Positions 8,890 through 16,484 of a stretch of 64,000 nt of DNA are shown one piece after another. The DNA lies in NCBI RefSeq assembly GCF_012979235.1, contig NZ_JAATWC010000012.1:1-64000 (forward strand). The letters are read 5' to 3'. The stretch's first letter is position 1. Each line of letters begins with the position of its first letter. The notes under the pieces are model-generated. The model was not told the DNA's origin. It worked only from the letters and a program-made list of their open reading frames with translations, and made no database searches. A program made the position numbers and the translations under genes. This DNA is from Dissulfurirhabdus thermomarina. Its GTDB lineage: Bacteria; Desulfobacterota; Dissulfuribacteria; Dissulfuribacterales; Dissulfurirhabdaceae.

Positions 8890-9684
8890 TCAGGCCGGCG
8901 TCGGGGCGAACCGGGCCCGGACCTCGCTCCCCCGGGCCGCGCCGGTGGCGGCGGCGGCGCTGGCCTCCCGGGCGGCGACCTCGAGGAAGCCGTGGCTGCC
9001 GGCAAGGGCGAGCAGCTCCCCGGGGGCGGCGTCGGCGTAGGTGCGGCGGAAGGGGGCGAGGCGGCCGCCGACCTCGGCCGCCGCCGGGAGGGGGCCTTCC
9101 GAGAGATCGATATTGGTGACGAGGTTGCCGAAGCGGTCCACGTGGACCACCCGGCCCCGGAGGCCCCCCGGGGCCGGTTCCGGCTCGGGCCAGGGCGGCG
9201 GGGCGGGGTGGAGATGCGGGGGGCCGAAGGCCTCCGGGGGGGTGCCCAGGGTGAGGTGGGCCGCCGCCGGGGCGAAGACGTCCCGCCCGTGGAAGGTGGG
9301 GCTGACGGGGCGGCGGTAGAGATCCTCCCGGGCCAGGCGGTGGATCGCCCGGGCGCCTCCCCGGCGCAGCGCCAGGGCGAGGAGGCCGTTGTCGGGGCCC
9401 ACGAAGAAGTGGCGGTCGGTGGCCGCCACGATCCCGGCCCGGTCGGTCCCGACCCCGGGGTCCACCACGGCGAGAAAAACGGTGCCCGGGGGAAAGTCGC
9501 CGCAGGCCGAGGCCAGGGCGAAGGCCCCGGCGGCCACGTCCTGCGGCGGGACGGCGTGGGTGAGGTCCACCACCCGGAGGGCCGGGTTCAGGCCGAGGAG
9601 GACCCCCTTGACCGATCCGACGTAGGTGTCCGCCAGGCCGAAGTCGCTCAGGAAGCCCACCAGCGGCAGGGGGCGCGGGGGCAC
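8890..9684 (-). CDS. SAM hydrolase (DUF62 / adenosine-forming)
   Basis: The 264-residue protein belongs to the family of S-adenosylmethionine hydrolases related to chlorinase/fluorinase. It shows LSDFGLADTYVGSVKG with the conserved Asp at the N-terminus, DLTHAVPPQDV, VVDPGVGTDR and FVGPDNGLL, and a C-terminal DRFGNLVTNI region. Family members split SAM to adenosine and methionine using a hydroxide. The gene starts three bases after the speE stop, so it is co-transcribed with the spermidine genes, which also draw on SAM. Confidence 0.88.
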   Translation of the reverse strand: MPPRPLPLVGFLSDFGLADTYVGSVKGVLLGLNPALRVVDLTHAVPPQDVAAGAFALASACGDFPPGTVFLAVVDPGVGTDRAGIVAATDRHFFVGPDNGLLALALRRGGARAIHRLAREDLYRRPVSPTFHGRDVFAPAAAHLTLGTPPEAFGPPHLHPAPPPWPEPEPAPGGLRGRVVHVDRFGNLVTNIDLSEGPLPAAAEVGGRLAPFRRTYADAAPGELLALAGSHGFLEVAAREASAAAATGAARGSEVRARFAPTPA

Positions 9685-9687
9685 GGC

Positions 9688-10554
9688 CTAGGCGATGACC
9701 ACGGGCACCCGCCCGTCGTCTCGGTAGTCCGCGATCCGATCGTGCCACCACGTGGGCAAGGCGAAGGCCGCCCGGTGACAATCGGGGTTGTAGTAGCGGC
9801 CGAGGCGGTTTTCGCGGGGTTCGGACAGGGAGGCGCCGTCCCGGGTGCCGGCGACGAAGGCCATCTCGTCGCCGTAGGTCGGCACCGGGGCCCGGTAGGG
9901 GGCGGCCCAGGGGAAGACCTCCCGGAAGCGGGCCATGACGAAGGGCATGACGTCCGGCATGCTGAAGGGGAGGGAGGCCTGCCGGACCGCGGCGCCGTCC
10001 TCGGCCAGGCACCGGCGGAGTGCCTCGTGGAAGGGCCGCTCGAACAGGACCATCGAGGGCCCCACCGGGTCCGTGGAGTCGATGAGGATCACGTCGAAGG
10101 TCTCGCCCCGCTCCGCCGCCTCGGCCATGTAGCGGGCCCCGTCCCCGATGACGAGGGTCACCCGGGGATCGTTCCAGTCGCACGTGATCTCCGGGAGGTA
10201 TTTCCGGCAGGCCCGGATCACCGCCTCGTCCAGTTCCACCTGGACGGCGCGGCGCACCGAGTCGTGGCGCAGGACCTCGCGCATGGCCCCGCCGTCTCCC
10301 CCGCCGATGACCAGGACCTTCTCGGGCGGCCGGGCGAGACCCGAAAGGGGCACGTGGACCATCATCTCGTGGTAGACGGCCTCGTCGCCCTCGGTCAGTT
10401 GAACGATACCGTCCAGGACCAGCATGCGGCCCCAGAGCGGCGTATGAAACACCTGGAGGTGCTGGTAGGGCGTGCGCTCCTCGTGGAGGATCTCGACGTC
10501 GTAGCTATGGAGAAAACCGCGTCCGACCCGTTCGGACCAGAGATGGCGAGTCAA
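9688..10554 (-). CDS. speE: spermidine synthase (polyamine aminopropyltransferase)
   Basis: The 288-residue protein moves the aminopropyl group of decarboxylated SAM to an amine such as putrescine, releasing methylthioadenosine. Visible are the N-terminal YDVEILHEERTPYQ, LVLDGIVQLTEGDE, the SAM-fold GGGDGG, IGDGARY, and DSTDPVGPS with the catalytic Asp; the C-terminus has YYNPDCHRAAFALP. The TTG start at 10554 is chosen because GGAGG precedes it at good spacing and it overlaps the SpeD-like stop as TTGA; the much longer open frame upstream is only the shadow of that gene. Confidence 0.93.
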   Translation of the reverse strand: MTRHLWSERVGRGFLHSYDVEILHEERTPYQHLQVFHTPLWGRMLVLDGIVQLTEGDEAVYHEMMVHVPLSGLARPPEKVLVIGGGDGGAMREVLRHDSVRRAVQVELDEAVIRACRKYLPEITCDWNDPRVTLVIGDGARYMAEAAERGETFDVILIDSTDPVGPSMVLFERPFHEALRRCLAEDGAAVRQASLPFSMPDVMPFVMARFREVFPWAAPYRAPVPTYGDEMAFVAGTRDGASLSEPRENRLGRYYNPDCHRAAFALPTWWHDRIADYRDDGRVPVVIA

Positions 10555-10994
10555 GTGTCCTCCATGGCGATCAGTTCCCCCCGCCGGACCTCGAAGACGT
10601 GCACCTCTTCGGGCCGGAGCCCGGTGCGGAGCCGCGCCAGGACTTCGTAGGCGTTCTCTCTGTCGCCCGCGAAGATGTCCACGGCGGCGTACTTGTTCTC
10701 GGGCCAGGTGTGGATCACCACGTGGGCCCCGGGGACGCTGGCCGTCCCGGAGACGCCGTAGGGGCTGAACTGGTGCACCCGGATGTCCGGGGCGGCGGCC
10801 GCCCCCCCGTTGCCGGCCCCGGTGTCGCCCAGGGCCCGTTCCACCATGCGGGCGTCGGCCAGGATGGAGAAGGGGGAACGCCACATCTCCACCAGGAGGT
10901 GCGTTCCCATGCACAGGGTCCGGGCCACCGCGGGGCCGGGTTCCCGGCGGGTGGCCGCGGGGGTGGGACAGGTGGTGGGTGTGGTGAGGGCCAT
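10551..10994 (-). CDS. SpeD-like protein lacking the pyruvoyl serine (probable non-processing SAM decarboxylase homologue)
   Basis: The 147-residue protein aligns with prokaryotic SAM decarboxylase: MGTHLLVEMW, HQFSPYGVSG and IHTWPENKYAAVDIF are clear. Active enzymes have Ser immediately before the His of the SHxxIHTxPE motif; this Ser becomes the pyruvoyl cofactor on self-cleavage. Here the residue is Ala90 (PGAHVVIHT, codon GCC). The catalytic Cys of the FTCGE segment is also absent (FAGDR, Gly110). The IHT His is kept. The protein should therefore neither self-cleave nor decarboxylate SAM in the known way. It is still coupled by TTGA to speE. It could be a regulatory partner of another SpeD, or have a new role. 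The start at 10994 has an AAGGAAGG upstream. Confidence 0.8.
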   Translation of the reverse strand: MALTTPTTCPTPAATRREPGPAVARTLCMGTHLLVEMWRSPFSILADARMVERALGDTGAGNGGAAAAPDIRVHQFSPYGVSGTASVPGAHVVIHTWPENKYAAVDIFAGDRENAYEVLARLRTGLRPEEVHVFEVRRGELIAMEDT

Positions 10995-11168: not shown

Positions 11169-11245
11169 TGGTCGGGACGAGAGGATTTGAACCTCCGACC
11201 CCCTGAACCCCATTCAGGTGCGCTTCCAGACTGCGCCACGTCCCG
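11169..11245 (-). tRNA. tRNA-Pro(GGG)
   Basis: The minus-strand sequence folds as a cloverleaf: acceptor CGGGACG/CGTCCCG, anticodon stem CCTGA/TCAGG around loop ATGGGGT (anticodon GGG), a GGTTCAAATCC T-arm, and an encoded CCA end. The 170 bases between its 3' end and the SpeD-like start hold GC-rich hairpins but no gene I can support. Confidence 0.95.
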
Positions 11246-14156: not shown

Positions 14157-15479
14157 TCAGGCCGGGCCGAGGCCGAGTTCCCGGGCGGCCCGGTCCACCC
14201 GGGCCAGGATGTCCGTCTCGTCGATGGTGACGAGGTGCCGGTCTTCCATGAGGAGGCGCCCGGCCACCACGACGTCGCGGACGTCGCCGCTCCGGGCCGC
14301 GTAGACGAGCTGGGAGGCCGGGTGGTAGCAGGGGCGGAGATGGGCCTGGTCCAGGTCCACCACCACCAGGTCGGCGGCGGCACCGGGGGCGAGGCGGCCG
14401 AGATCGGGCCGGTGGAGGGCCCGGGCCGCCTGGGTGGTGGCCATGGCCAGGGCCTCGGTGGCCGAGACGAGGGTGGGGTCCCGGTGGAGGCCCTTGGGGA
14501 GCTTCGCCGCCGTGTCCATCTCGCTGAGGAGATCGAGGTCGTTGTTGCTGGCGGCCCCGTCGGTGCCGAGCGTCACGATCACTCCCGCCGCCAGGAGCTC
14601 CGGGACCGGGGCGATGCCGGAGGCGAGCTTCAGGTTGCTCTCCGGGCAGTGGGCCACGCGGACGTCCCGCTCGGCCAGGAGGCGGATGTCCTCCGGGGTG
14701 AGGGCCACGCAGTGGGCCGCCAGGAGGCGTTCCCCCAGGAGGCCCAGGGCGTCGAGGTAGGCGGCGGGGGTCTTCCCGTGGCGCCGGGTGATCTCCTCCA
14801 CCTCCCAGCGGGTCTCGGCGAGGTGGGTCACCATGGCGAGATCCAGCCGGCCGGCGAGATCCCGGGCGGCCTCCATGAGCTCGGGGGCGCAGGTGTAGGG
14901 GGTGTGGGGATCCACGGTGATGGTGATGCGGGGGTGGCCGCCCCAGGCCGCGGCCAGGCGCTCGGTCTCGGCCAGCGCCGCCCGGCCGGAGGGAAAGGCC
15001 GGGGTGGGGAAGTCGAAGACCCCCTCGCCCAGCCAGGCGCGCATCCCCACGCGGTCCACCACGCGGGCCACCTCCTCCTCGAAGAGGTACATGTCCACGA
15101 AGCCGGTGGTGCCGCACCGGATCATCTCGGCGCAGGCGAGCTCCGTGCCGAGGGCCACGAGTTCCCGGGTGAGCCGGGCCTCGGCGGGGAAGATGTGGTC
15201 CTCGAGCCAGGCCTTCAGGGGGAGGTCGTCCGCAAGCCCCCGGAACAGGGTCATGGGGGCGTGGGTGTGGGCATTGACGAGGCCGGGGAAGACGAGCCCC
15301 CCGCTTTTGCGGTCGAGGAGGCGGGCACCCTCGTGGCGGGCCGAGACTTCGGCCCAGGGACCCACGGCGGCGATCGTGCCGCCGCGGACCGCCACGGCGC
15401 CGTCGCGGATCGGGGCCGCCGCCGGCTCGGGGAGGACCAGCTCCGCCCGGACGAGGAGGTCGGCGCGGACGCGGCTCAC
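14157..15479 (-). CDS. mtaD: 5-methylthioadenosine/S-adenosylhomocysteine deaminase family amidohydrolase
   Basis: The 440-residue metal-dependent amidohydrolase shows PGLVNAHTHAPMTLFRGLADD (HxH metal site), THLAET (His and Glu), AHCVALT, and LGTDGAASNNDLDL (catalytic Asp). This is the MTA/SAH deaminase branch, which may also act on adenosine. It should convert methylthioadenosine to methylthioinosine. The GTG start at 15479 overlaps the stop of the phosphorylase gene as GTGA. Since SpeE makes methylthioadenosine and the adjacent enzyme splits inosine-type nucleosides, the pair plausibly forms a two-step salvage route. Confidence 0.88.
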   Translation of the reverse strand: MSRVRADLLVRAELVLPEPAAAPIRDGAVAVRGGTIAAVGPWAEVSARHEGARLLDRKSGGLVFPGLVNAHTHAPMTLFRGLADDLPLKAWLEDHIFPAEARLTRELVALGTELACAEMIRCGTTGFVDMYLFEEEVARVVDRVGMRAWLGEGVFDFPTPAFPSGRAALAETERLAAAWGGHPRITITVDPHTPYTCAPELMEAARDLAGRLDLAMVTHLAETRWEVEEITRRHGKTPAAYLDALGLLGERLLAAHCVALTPEDIRLLAERDVRVAHCPESNLKLASGIAPVPELLAAGVIVTLGTDGAASNNDLDLLSEMDTAAKLPKGLHRDPTLVSATEALAMATTQAARALHRPDLGRLAPGAAADLVVVDLDQAHLRPCYHPASQLVYAARSGDVRDVVVAGRLLMEDRHLVTIDETDILARVDRAARELGLGPA

Positions 15480-16324
15480 GGCGCCGCCTCCCGGCCGGGC
15501 GCGGCCGCCGCCGGGAGCACGGCGGAAAGCAGCCGGCCCAGGCGGTCCTGGGCCGACCGGGCGCCTTCCACCACGTCCTCGAGGCGGATGGGCGTAAAGT
15601 CGTCCGGGTCGTTCACGTTGGCGATGACGGAGATCCCGAGGACCCGCATCCCCGCGTGGACCGCCACGATGACCTCGGGGACCAGGGACATGGCCACGGC
15701 GTCGGCCCCGGCAAGACGCAGGAAGCGGGTCTCGGCCGGGGTCTCGAGGCTCGGCCCCGGCACCGCCACGAAGACGCCTTCCCGGGCGGGGATGCCCAGC
15801 TCCGAGGCGGCGGCCAGGGTCCGCGCCCGGAGGGCGGCGTCGTAGGCCCGGGACATGTCCGGGAAGCGGGGCCCCCAGTCGTCGCGGTTGGGGCCCCGCA
15901 GCGGGTTGTCCGGGATGAGGTTGATGTGGTCCCGGAGGACCATGAGGTCGCCGGGCCGGAAGGCGGTGTCGAGCCCGCCGGCGGCGTTGCACCCGATGAA
16001 GGTCCGGGCGCCGACGAGGCCCATGACCCGGACGGGGAGGGCGGCTTCCCGGGCGGCATGGCCCTCGTAGTAGTGGTAGCGGCCCTGGAAGATGGCCGCC
16101 ACGGTGCCCCCCAGGCGGCAGAGCCGGACCCGGCCCGGGTGTTCCGGGGCCGTGGGGGCCGGGAAGGCGGGGATCTCGTCGTAGCGGGCCTCCCAGAGGA
16201 CCTCCGCCGAGGCGGCGGCCCCGTCGAGTCCGGTGCCGAGCATCAGGCAGACGTCCGGGCGTTCCGGGAGGGCCTTCCGGAAAAAGTCCACCGAGGCCGT
16301 GACGGCCCTTGAGTATTGGTCCAT
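15476..16324 (-). CDS. purine nucleoside phosphorylase (PNP/MTAP family)
   Basis: The 282-residue protein has the trimeric PNP signatures: GRYHYYEGH, CNAAGGLDTAFRPGDLMVLRDHINL, a PGPSLETPAE segment with the base-binding Glu, AVAMSLVPEVIVA, and GISVIANVND. The Asn in the last motif, where methylthioadenosine phosphorylases carry Asp, points to 6-oxopurine nucleosides (inosine, guanosine, methylthioinosine). It is followed in the same operon by the deaminase. The ATG at 16324 is preferred; an upstream frame starting at 16411 would cross the promoter. Confidence 0.88.
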   Translation of the reverse strand: MDQYSRAVTASVDFFRKALPERPDVCLMLGTGLDGAAASAEVLWEARYDEIPAFPAPTAPEHPGRVRLCRLGGTVAAIFQGRYHYYEGHAAREAALPVRVMGLVGARTFIGCNAAGGLDTAFRPGDLMVLRDHINLIPDNPLRGPNRDDWGPRFPDMSRAYDAALRARTLAAASELGIPAREGVFVAVPGPSLETPAETRFLRLAGADAVAMSLVPEVIVAVHAGMRVLGISVIANVNDPDDFTPIRLEDVVEGARSAQDRLGRLLSAVLPAAAAPGREAAP

Positions 16325-16333
16325 GGACAGGTA

Positions 16334-16362
16334 TCCATAAAGAATGAAGGGTCGAAAGTCAA
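16334..16362 (-). promoter_or_regulatory. promoter of the PNP-deaminase operon, possibly leaderless
   Basis: Minus-strand TTGACT, 17 bases, TATGGA. The -10 box ends nine bases before the ATG and no ribosome site fits between, so the mRNA may start at the start codon. Confidence 0.5.
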
Positions 16363-16484
16363 CGCGACGCCGGCGCGCCCCCTTGCTGGCGTGGGCCTTC
16401 GCCGTGGGCATCCTGCTCGGGGCGAGGTTCGCCGTGGATCTCGCGGGGGAGCGGAGGCGCGTCGGGCGCCGCCCGGCGGCGTGA
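16344..16484 (+). CDS. possible 46-residue single-pass membrane protein
   Basis: A short frame starts ATG AAG GGT, has a very basic N-terminus (KGRKSTRRRR), one hydrophobic segment of about 20 residues and a basic tail. Topology is sensible for a small membrane protein, but there is no clear ribosome site and its start lies within the divergent PNP promoter. It may be an untranslated leader of the next gene instead. Confidence 0.35.
   Translation: MKGRKSTRRRRAPLLAWAFAVGILLGARFAVDLAGERRRVGRRPAA

Follow-up and report, generated by a model that had tools for sequence, protein, structure and literature searches.

The window analysed here, a stretch of 64,000 nucleotides from Dissulfurirhabdus thermomarina, contains on its minus strand three successive genes, the first of which (10551-10994) encodes a class 1b homologue of S-adenosylmethionine decarboxylases (AdoMetDC, SpeD) of 147 amino acids, the second (9688-10554) a spermidine synthase/aminopropyltransferase (SpeE) and the third, downstream (8890-9684), a SAM hydrolase of the SAM hydroxide adenosyltransferase family. 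SpeE scores above the cut-off of TIGR00417 with 262.5 bits and reaches 181 bits in PF01564, and the hydrolase matches PF01887 with 184 bits and PF20257 with 77 bits. The TGA stop codon of speD (10553-10551) and the TTG start codon of speE (10554-10552) overlap in the sequence TTGA, and the likely ribosome-binding site of speE, GGAGG (10559-10563, minus strand), is located inside the 3' end of speD. Directly upstream of speD resides a gene for tRNA-Pro(GGG) (11169-11245, minus strand), and a tRNA-like sequence is found at the same upstream place in the relatives L054, L082 and L085, which suggests an old, orthologous site. Elsewhere in the window, a TRZ/ATZ-type amidohydrolase (14157-15992), which is near to the MTA/SAH/5'-deoxyadenosine deaminases, is found beside a purine nucleoside phosphorylase (15476-16411), a pair that possibly acts in the salvage of methylthioadenosine released by SpeE.

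The relationship of the first protein to AdoMetDCs is reflected in its matches to PF02675 (84.5 bits, Pfam) and to the NCBIfam equivalog TIGR03330 (80.7 bits, above the cut-off of 75.65), and in its alignment to the enzyme from Thermotoga maritima (1tlu and 1tmi) with E-values between 6e-18 and 2e-17. An AF2 model of the protein (pLDDT 85.8) is predicted to adopt the AdoMetDC fold, with a VIA Z of 16.1 to 1tlu. We use the numbering of the T. maritima enzyme (Tm), whose sequence matches the 1tlu/1tmi alignments between residues 3 and 117. At the position of the pyruvoyl-forming serine (Tm Ser63) the protein contains an alanine (Ala90, codon GCC, 10725-10727, minus strand) and at the position of the catalytic cysteine (Tm Cys83) a glycine (Gly110, codon GGC, 10665-10667, minus strand), with the YGVSG and IHTWPE motifs being retained. 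These features had been described in an earlier note on this DNA and are confirmed by the alignment to both structures. With Ser63, Cys83 and also Glu62 missing from its sequence, the protein, which we term dead SpeD, is predicted to be unable to form a pyruvoyl group of its own. Its score above the equivalog cut-off implies that automatic pipelines name a non-cleaving protein adenosylmethionine decarboxylase. The C-terminus of this and related dead proteins is a threonine, nearly always as part of Asp-Thr or Glu-Thr (MEDT, MEET, GET), and this tail (10551-10565 in the window) may constitute an interaction element.

A search of the complete genome for a second SpeD, as proposed in the earlier note, was successful. 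The genome (2.46 Mb, 99% complete) encodes only two PF02675 proteins, dead SpeD and a live form on contig C2 with intact serine and cysteine (AESHISIHTFPEK..DIFSCK), and both genes are thus unfused and reside on different contigs. The live gene is flanked by a PuuR-like regulator on one side and an agmatinase on the other. In a tree calculated without the proven arginine decarboxylase sequences themselves, the live protein groups with SpeDs of the Vampirovibrionales SpeD2 and SpeDC type (SH-aLRT 100). Arginine decarboxylase activity is proven for SpeD2 of Vampirovibrio chlorellavorus, and the SpeD1 next to it is a bona fide AdoMetDC (PMC10407285). The D. thermomarina genome contains two spermidine synthases, and its agmatinase is present without any other arginine decarboxylase found. 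Neither SpeA/ODC, the only PF02784 protein being LysA (506 bits), nor a pyruvoyl-dependent ADC of the PF01862 type nor a PF01276 decarboxylase was detected in this genome, and class 2 AdoMetDC (PF01536) was found in none of 22 genomes, which is a weak absence as controls gave no match either. Since no other arginine or SAM decarboxylase was found, the live SpeD is the only candidate identified for both decarboxylations.

Dead SpeD is a member of a larger family. One family aside, most of the order's genomes in a set of 60 relatives encode one strong and one weaker PF02675 protein, the weaker of which is present in 28 genomes of the order and lacks serine and cysteine in all of them. A profile built from these 28 sequences and run against 395 genomes of the phylum gave 32 matches of at least 118 bits, followed by a gap with no match between 118 and 88 bits. 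Those beyond the order belong to three families (f39, f72 and f97), which were identified through named MAGs as Thermodesulfobacteria (Thermodesulfatator, Thermosulfurimonas and others). The resulting 48 distinct sequences, from the order of the window and from Thermodesulfobacteria, fall into a single clade (SH-aLRT 100) within the canonical AdoMetDC part of a quick tree that is based on few columns. Cys83 is missing in all 48 sequences, Glu62 in 45 and Ser63 in 43; the five proteins that still carry a serine at the pyruvoyl site all stem from Thermodesulfobacteria. With respect to the conservation of alanine and glycine in homologues, for which the earlier note had suggested an alignment, the loss of the cysteine is thus common to all 48 sequences and that of the serine is not. 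A corrected sequence with serine at position 90, which the note had also considered, is not to be expected, because relatives equally lack both residues; sequencing error or a one-off decay in the gene of the window is ruled out by losses that are common to 48 homologues.

It is also highly improbable that dead SpeD represents the decaying remnant of a former AdoMetDC, with its entire function resting on the live SpeD. Its descent from the canonical AdoMetDC branch and the loss of its catalytic residues would both suit such a remnant. However, the open reading frame in the window contains no internal stop, the frames are intact in all 48 sequences, and the median dN/dS of 0.096 (range 0.02-0.15 in 12 close pairs) indicates purifying selection, which also rules out a recent pseudogene. 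The family is moreover kept across two deep groups, with invariant residues on the side that would face a partner. The earlier statement that the gene, despite its losses, is intact and no decayed remnant has thus withstood scrutiny. For the live form, the median dN/dS is 0.060 (8 pairs).

The dead form is strictly accompanied by the live form, which is present in all 32 genomes of the phylum sample (395 genomes) that hold a dead SpeD. These counts carry no correction for shared ancestry, and the dead clade may stem from a small number of events. In further families of the phylum, an intact canonical SpeD often accompanies the live form. Each of the 16 genomes of Thermodesulfobacteria holds exactly two SpeDs, one dead and one live, the latter forming a constant pair with speB. 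Two genomes of the order (G001 and G011) encode a live-type SpeD and an agmatinase (speB) without dead SpeD and without stand-alone SpeE, and in two others (G040 and G041) a canonical SpeD is located beside SpeE, with both the dead and the live form missing; several relatives are fragmentary, so that gaps may account for single absences (G002, G006, G017). Aminopropyl polyamines, whose synthesis needs decarboxylated SAM (dcSAM), accumulate in Thermodesulfobacterium thermophilum, a species of the Thermodesulfobacteria group with two working aminopropyltransferases (PMC11107197). Judging from its family, the genome of this species presumably contains the dead and live pair.

Other SpeD variants were encountered in the course of this survey. 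In five genomes (G117, G118, G152, G227, G403), a canonical SpeD match is interrupted by one internal stop (TAG/TAA) and a live SpeDA-like form is also present. A PF02675-like protein encoded at L052 (2651-3307, plus strand) carries a lipoprotein-type signal (LLLSCGLASC) and lacks serine, histidine and cysteine (REGHITIATWPE), and it thus appears to be an exported dead SpeD fold. Two genomes (G009, L046:3323-3856, and G053, L057:3355-3813) encode an extra SpeD of the ornithine decarboxylase (SpeDC) type (YSMVQLIETSMISAHF), in the vicinity of a PF02784 protein that is perhaps a carboxyspermidine decarboxylase.

The distinct roles of both forms are suggested by the residues that each has kept. 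Our comparison comprised the 27 columns with a conservation of 90% or more among canonical SpeDs. Among these, the dead family has lost G5, A39, H47, G56, V57, E62, S63 and C83, with retention of 6% for E62, 7% for S63 and 0% for C83, and has mostly or wholly kept the others, Phe49, Pro51, Gly53, Ser55, His68, Thr69, Trp70, Pro71, Glu72, Ala77 and Asp79 being invariant in all 48 sequences. In the window, the invariant residues F76 and S82 (Tm F49 and S55) are contained in the segment FSPYGVS (10749-10769, minus strand) and H95 and E99 (Tm H68 and E72) in HTWPE (10698-10712, minus strand). In the live family, E62, S63 and C83 are found at 100% and G5 and G56 are also kept, with losses at A39, H47, F49, P51, V57, W70, A76 and A77. 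The two patterns are thus complementary except for three columns that are lost in both (A39, H47 and V57), although the changes in the live family, being common to the whole live branch, may simply reflect a changed substrate.

The meaning of this pattern becomes apparent in light of the eukaryotic enzyme. Tm Glu72 we take to be the equivalent of human Glu247, as supported by its equal spacing. Two bacterial half-enzymes packed via their sheets correspond to one eukaryotic protomer, where the pyruvoyl group and the catalytic cysteine are located in the N-terminal sheet and, in Trypanosoma brucei, the ligand residues Y243 and S249 (human F223 and S229) in the C-terminal sheet (PMC5201418). T. 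maritima Ser55 is equivalent to human Ser229, which together with His243 assists processing at Ser68, and Glu62 is the likely base for Ser63 (PMC3975893). When mapped onto the eukaryotic enzyme, these residues suggest that both protomers contribute to each class 1b site, with E62, S63 and C83 serving the pyruvoyl site of the protomer itself and F49, S55, H68 and E72 that of its partner. The dead family has dropped the former set and fixed the latter, and this retention of all partner-facing active-site residues points to a sharing of the active site. The same invariance speaks against an alternative in which dead SpeD forms a heteromer with the live SpeD and activates it allosterically, in the manner of the trypanosome prozyme, with no contribution of active-site residues. 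We consider this reading improbable, even though it would equally account for the single live paralogue found beside the dead form in each genome and for their strict co-occurrence, since ligand-binding residues such as Y243, whose equivalents are invariant here, have disappeared from the prozyme (PMC5201418), and since bacterial enzymes do not contain the additional domain through which the eukaryotic proteins dimerise (PMC5201418). The prozyme analogy drawn in the earlier note was therefore right in kind and too loose in its detail, as the prozyme acts allosterically after loss of its ligand residues (PMC5201418) whereas the partner-facing residues of dead SpeD are kept.

The genomic neighbourhood offers two further explanations. 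The main rival, which we nevertheless regard as unlikely, views dead SpeD as a structural or activating partner of SpeE that stabilises the SpeE dimer in the same way as the N-terminal domain of human spermine synthase. It draws on the overlap of both genes in the window, on the adjacency of speE in 22 of the 28 loci of the order and in 16 of 16 Thermodesulfobacteria genomes, on the presence of the human domain among the closest folds to the dead model (3c6k, Z 10.7), and on the precedent of a lost AdoMetDC domain that is essential for dimerisation (PMC12803844). However, the same similarity is seen for the live model (Z 9.8) and is therefore a general property of the fold, and the human domain is alike in structure and not in sequence (PMC12803844). 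Moreover, the dead gene persists without adjoining speE in six of the 28 genomes (G004, G005, G007, G010, G013, G015) and, in G010, without any SpeE found, and a purely structural role would leave the conservation of F49, S55, H68 and E72 in 48 of 48 sequences unexplained. With a still lower probability, dead SpeD would act as a SAM- or dcSAM-binding sensor or carrier that controls SpeE, the SAM hydrolase or gene expression. The retention of substrate-facing residues is consistent with such a function, as is the SAM hydrolase gene, which is located nearby in 24 of the 28 genomes of the order and still adjoins dead speD in four of those without adjacent speE (G005, G007, G013, G015). On the other side, a complete pocket would require both faces of the dimer, one of which has been discarded, and no SAM hydrolase linkage was found at the Thermodesulfobacteria loci examined. 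The suggestion in the earlier note that the protein passes SAM or dcSAM to SpeE or to the hydrolase has thus gained no specific support, given that speE is not a neighbour in 6 of 28 genomes and the hydrolase not in 4 of 28, nor at those Thermodesulfobacteria loci.

We instead propose, with about even chances of being correct, that a heteromeric AdoMetDC contains dead SpeD as its non-processing scaffolding subunit and the live SpeDA-like subunit as the source of its pyruvoyl group. This proposal builds on the observed sequence pattern, its conservation, selection, co-occurrence, phylogeny and gene inventory, from which we infer complex formation, activity and specificity. In a class 1b dimer, two protomers would interact sheet to sheet, with each site being formed by residues on the pyruvoyl side of one protomer (Tm E62, S63 and C83) and by partner-facing residues of the second (Tm F49, S55, H68 and E72). 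The live SpeD encoded in the same genome would be the partner of dead SpeD and would self-cleave to supply the pyruvoyl group, whereas the dead subunit would contribute residues that bind SAM and assist processing, and the resulting dcSAM would be used by the spermidine synthase that is encoded together with dead speD. Because the live SpeD appears to fall in the arginine decarboxylase-like (SpeDA) branch and is encoded beside agmatinase, its homodimer probably produces agmatine, and the hetero-pair would constitute a SAM decarboxylase in a genome otherwise devoid of this enzyme. As a tentative extension, which we judge rather doubtful, the pairing might act as a specificity switch, where the live homodimer decarboxylates arginine and association with the SAM-binding face of dead SpeD converts it into a SAM decarboxylase. 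If true, two genes would give two steps of one pathway. Control of specificity by the scaffolding subunit alone is at odds with the D. phosphitoxidans fusion, whose substrate followed the pyruvoyl-bearing domain (PMC10407285). The heteromer itself is challenged by G010, which at 97% completeness contains the dead and the live form with no SpeE detected, and by the possibility that the live SpeD decarboxylates SAM alone, as it keeps P71 and, mostly, E72, and as its F49Y change is tolerated in the AdoMetDC of T. brucei (Y243). A preference of the dead model for the C-terminal half of human AdoMetDC was dropped as support, since it is shared by the live model and thus not specific, and a sequence search with the dead profile found no eukaryotic AdoMetDC.

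Known dead partners of AdoMetDC comprise the prozyme, the second half of the eukaryotic enzyme and the degraded domains present in bacterial fusion proteins, the last described in PMC10407285. Among the open-licence papers searched, none was found to describe an unfused bacterial partner that is of AdoMetDC lineage and occurs together with a SpeDA-like live form across two deep groups. If our proposal is correct, it would describe a half-dead AdoMetDC like that of eukaryotes in bacterial and unfused form, with a bearing on the origin of the eukaryotic enzyme, and it would explain the supply of dcSAM without an intact canonical AdoMetDC in both deep groups of these sulfur bacteria, including the group with a species that accumulates aminopropyl polyamines.

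Collectively, the proteins described here share features with several known systems. Compared to class 1b AdoMetDCs (T. maritima 1tlu and the S63A mutant 1tmi), dead SpeD has the same fold, length and FxPxGVS and IHTWPE motifs, with Ser55 and His68 kept in 48 of 48 members of its family, but it lacks Ser63, Cys83 and Glu62 and thus resembles a natural S63A/C83G double mutant. The live partner, a putative arginine decarboxylase, appears to belong with SpeDA enzymes of the Vampirovibrio SpeD2 type and adjoins agmatinase, but it is not accompanied by an intact canonical SpeD. The N-terminal domain of animal spermine synthase is likewise a dead unit of AdoMetDC fold associated with an aminopropyltransferase, but it is fused, whereas the reading frames here are separate and overlapping, and it is similar to class 1b AdoMetDCs in structure and not in sequence. 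The trypanosomatid prozyme is also a dead AdoMetDC paralogue that is kept beside a live one; it is however a class 2 protein that acts allosterically and has lost ligand-binding residues, whereas the equivalents F49 and E72 are found in 48 of 48 dead SpeDs. The SpeD-degraded SpeDC fusions of the bacteria Victivallis vadensis and Desulfobacter latus (PMC10407285) likewise combine a live with a degraded SpeD domain, but they differ in being fused and in containing a degraded domain of the ODC type, whereas in our case both proteins are unfused, with the dead form being of AdoMetDC lineage and the live form of ADC-like lineage. Finally, the C-terminal half of eukaryotic class 2 AdoMetDCs is equally non-cleaving, keeps helper and substrate residues of the F223/S229/H243/E247 type and relies on the half that carries the pyruvoyl group; in contrast to this scaffolding half, dead SpeD is encoded by a separate gene, is bacterial and of independent origin, and has a presumed partner that is SpeDA-like.
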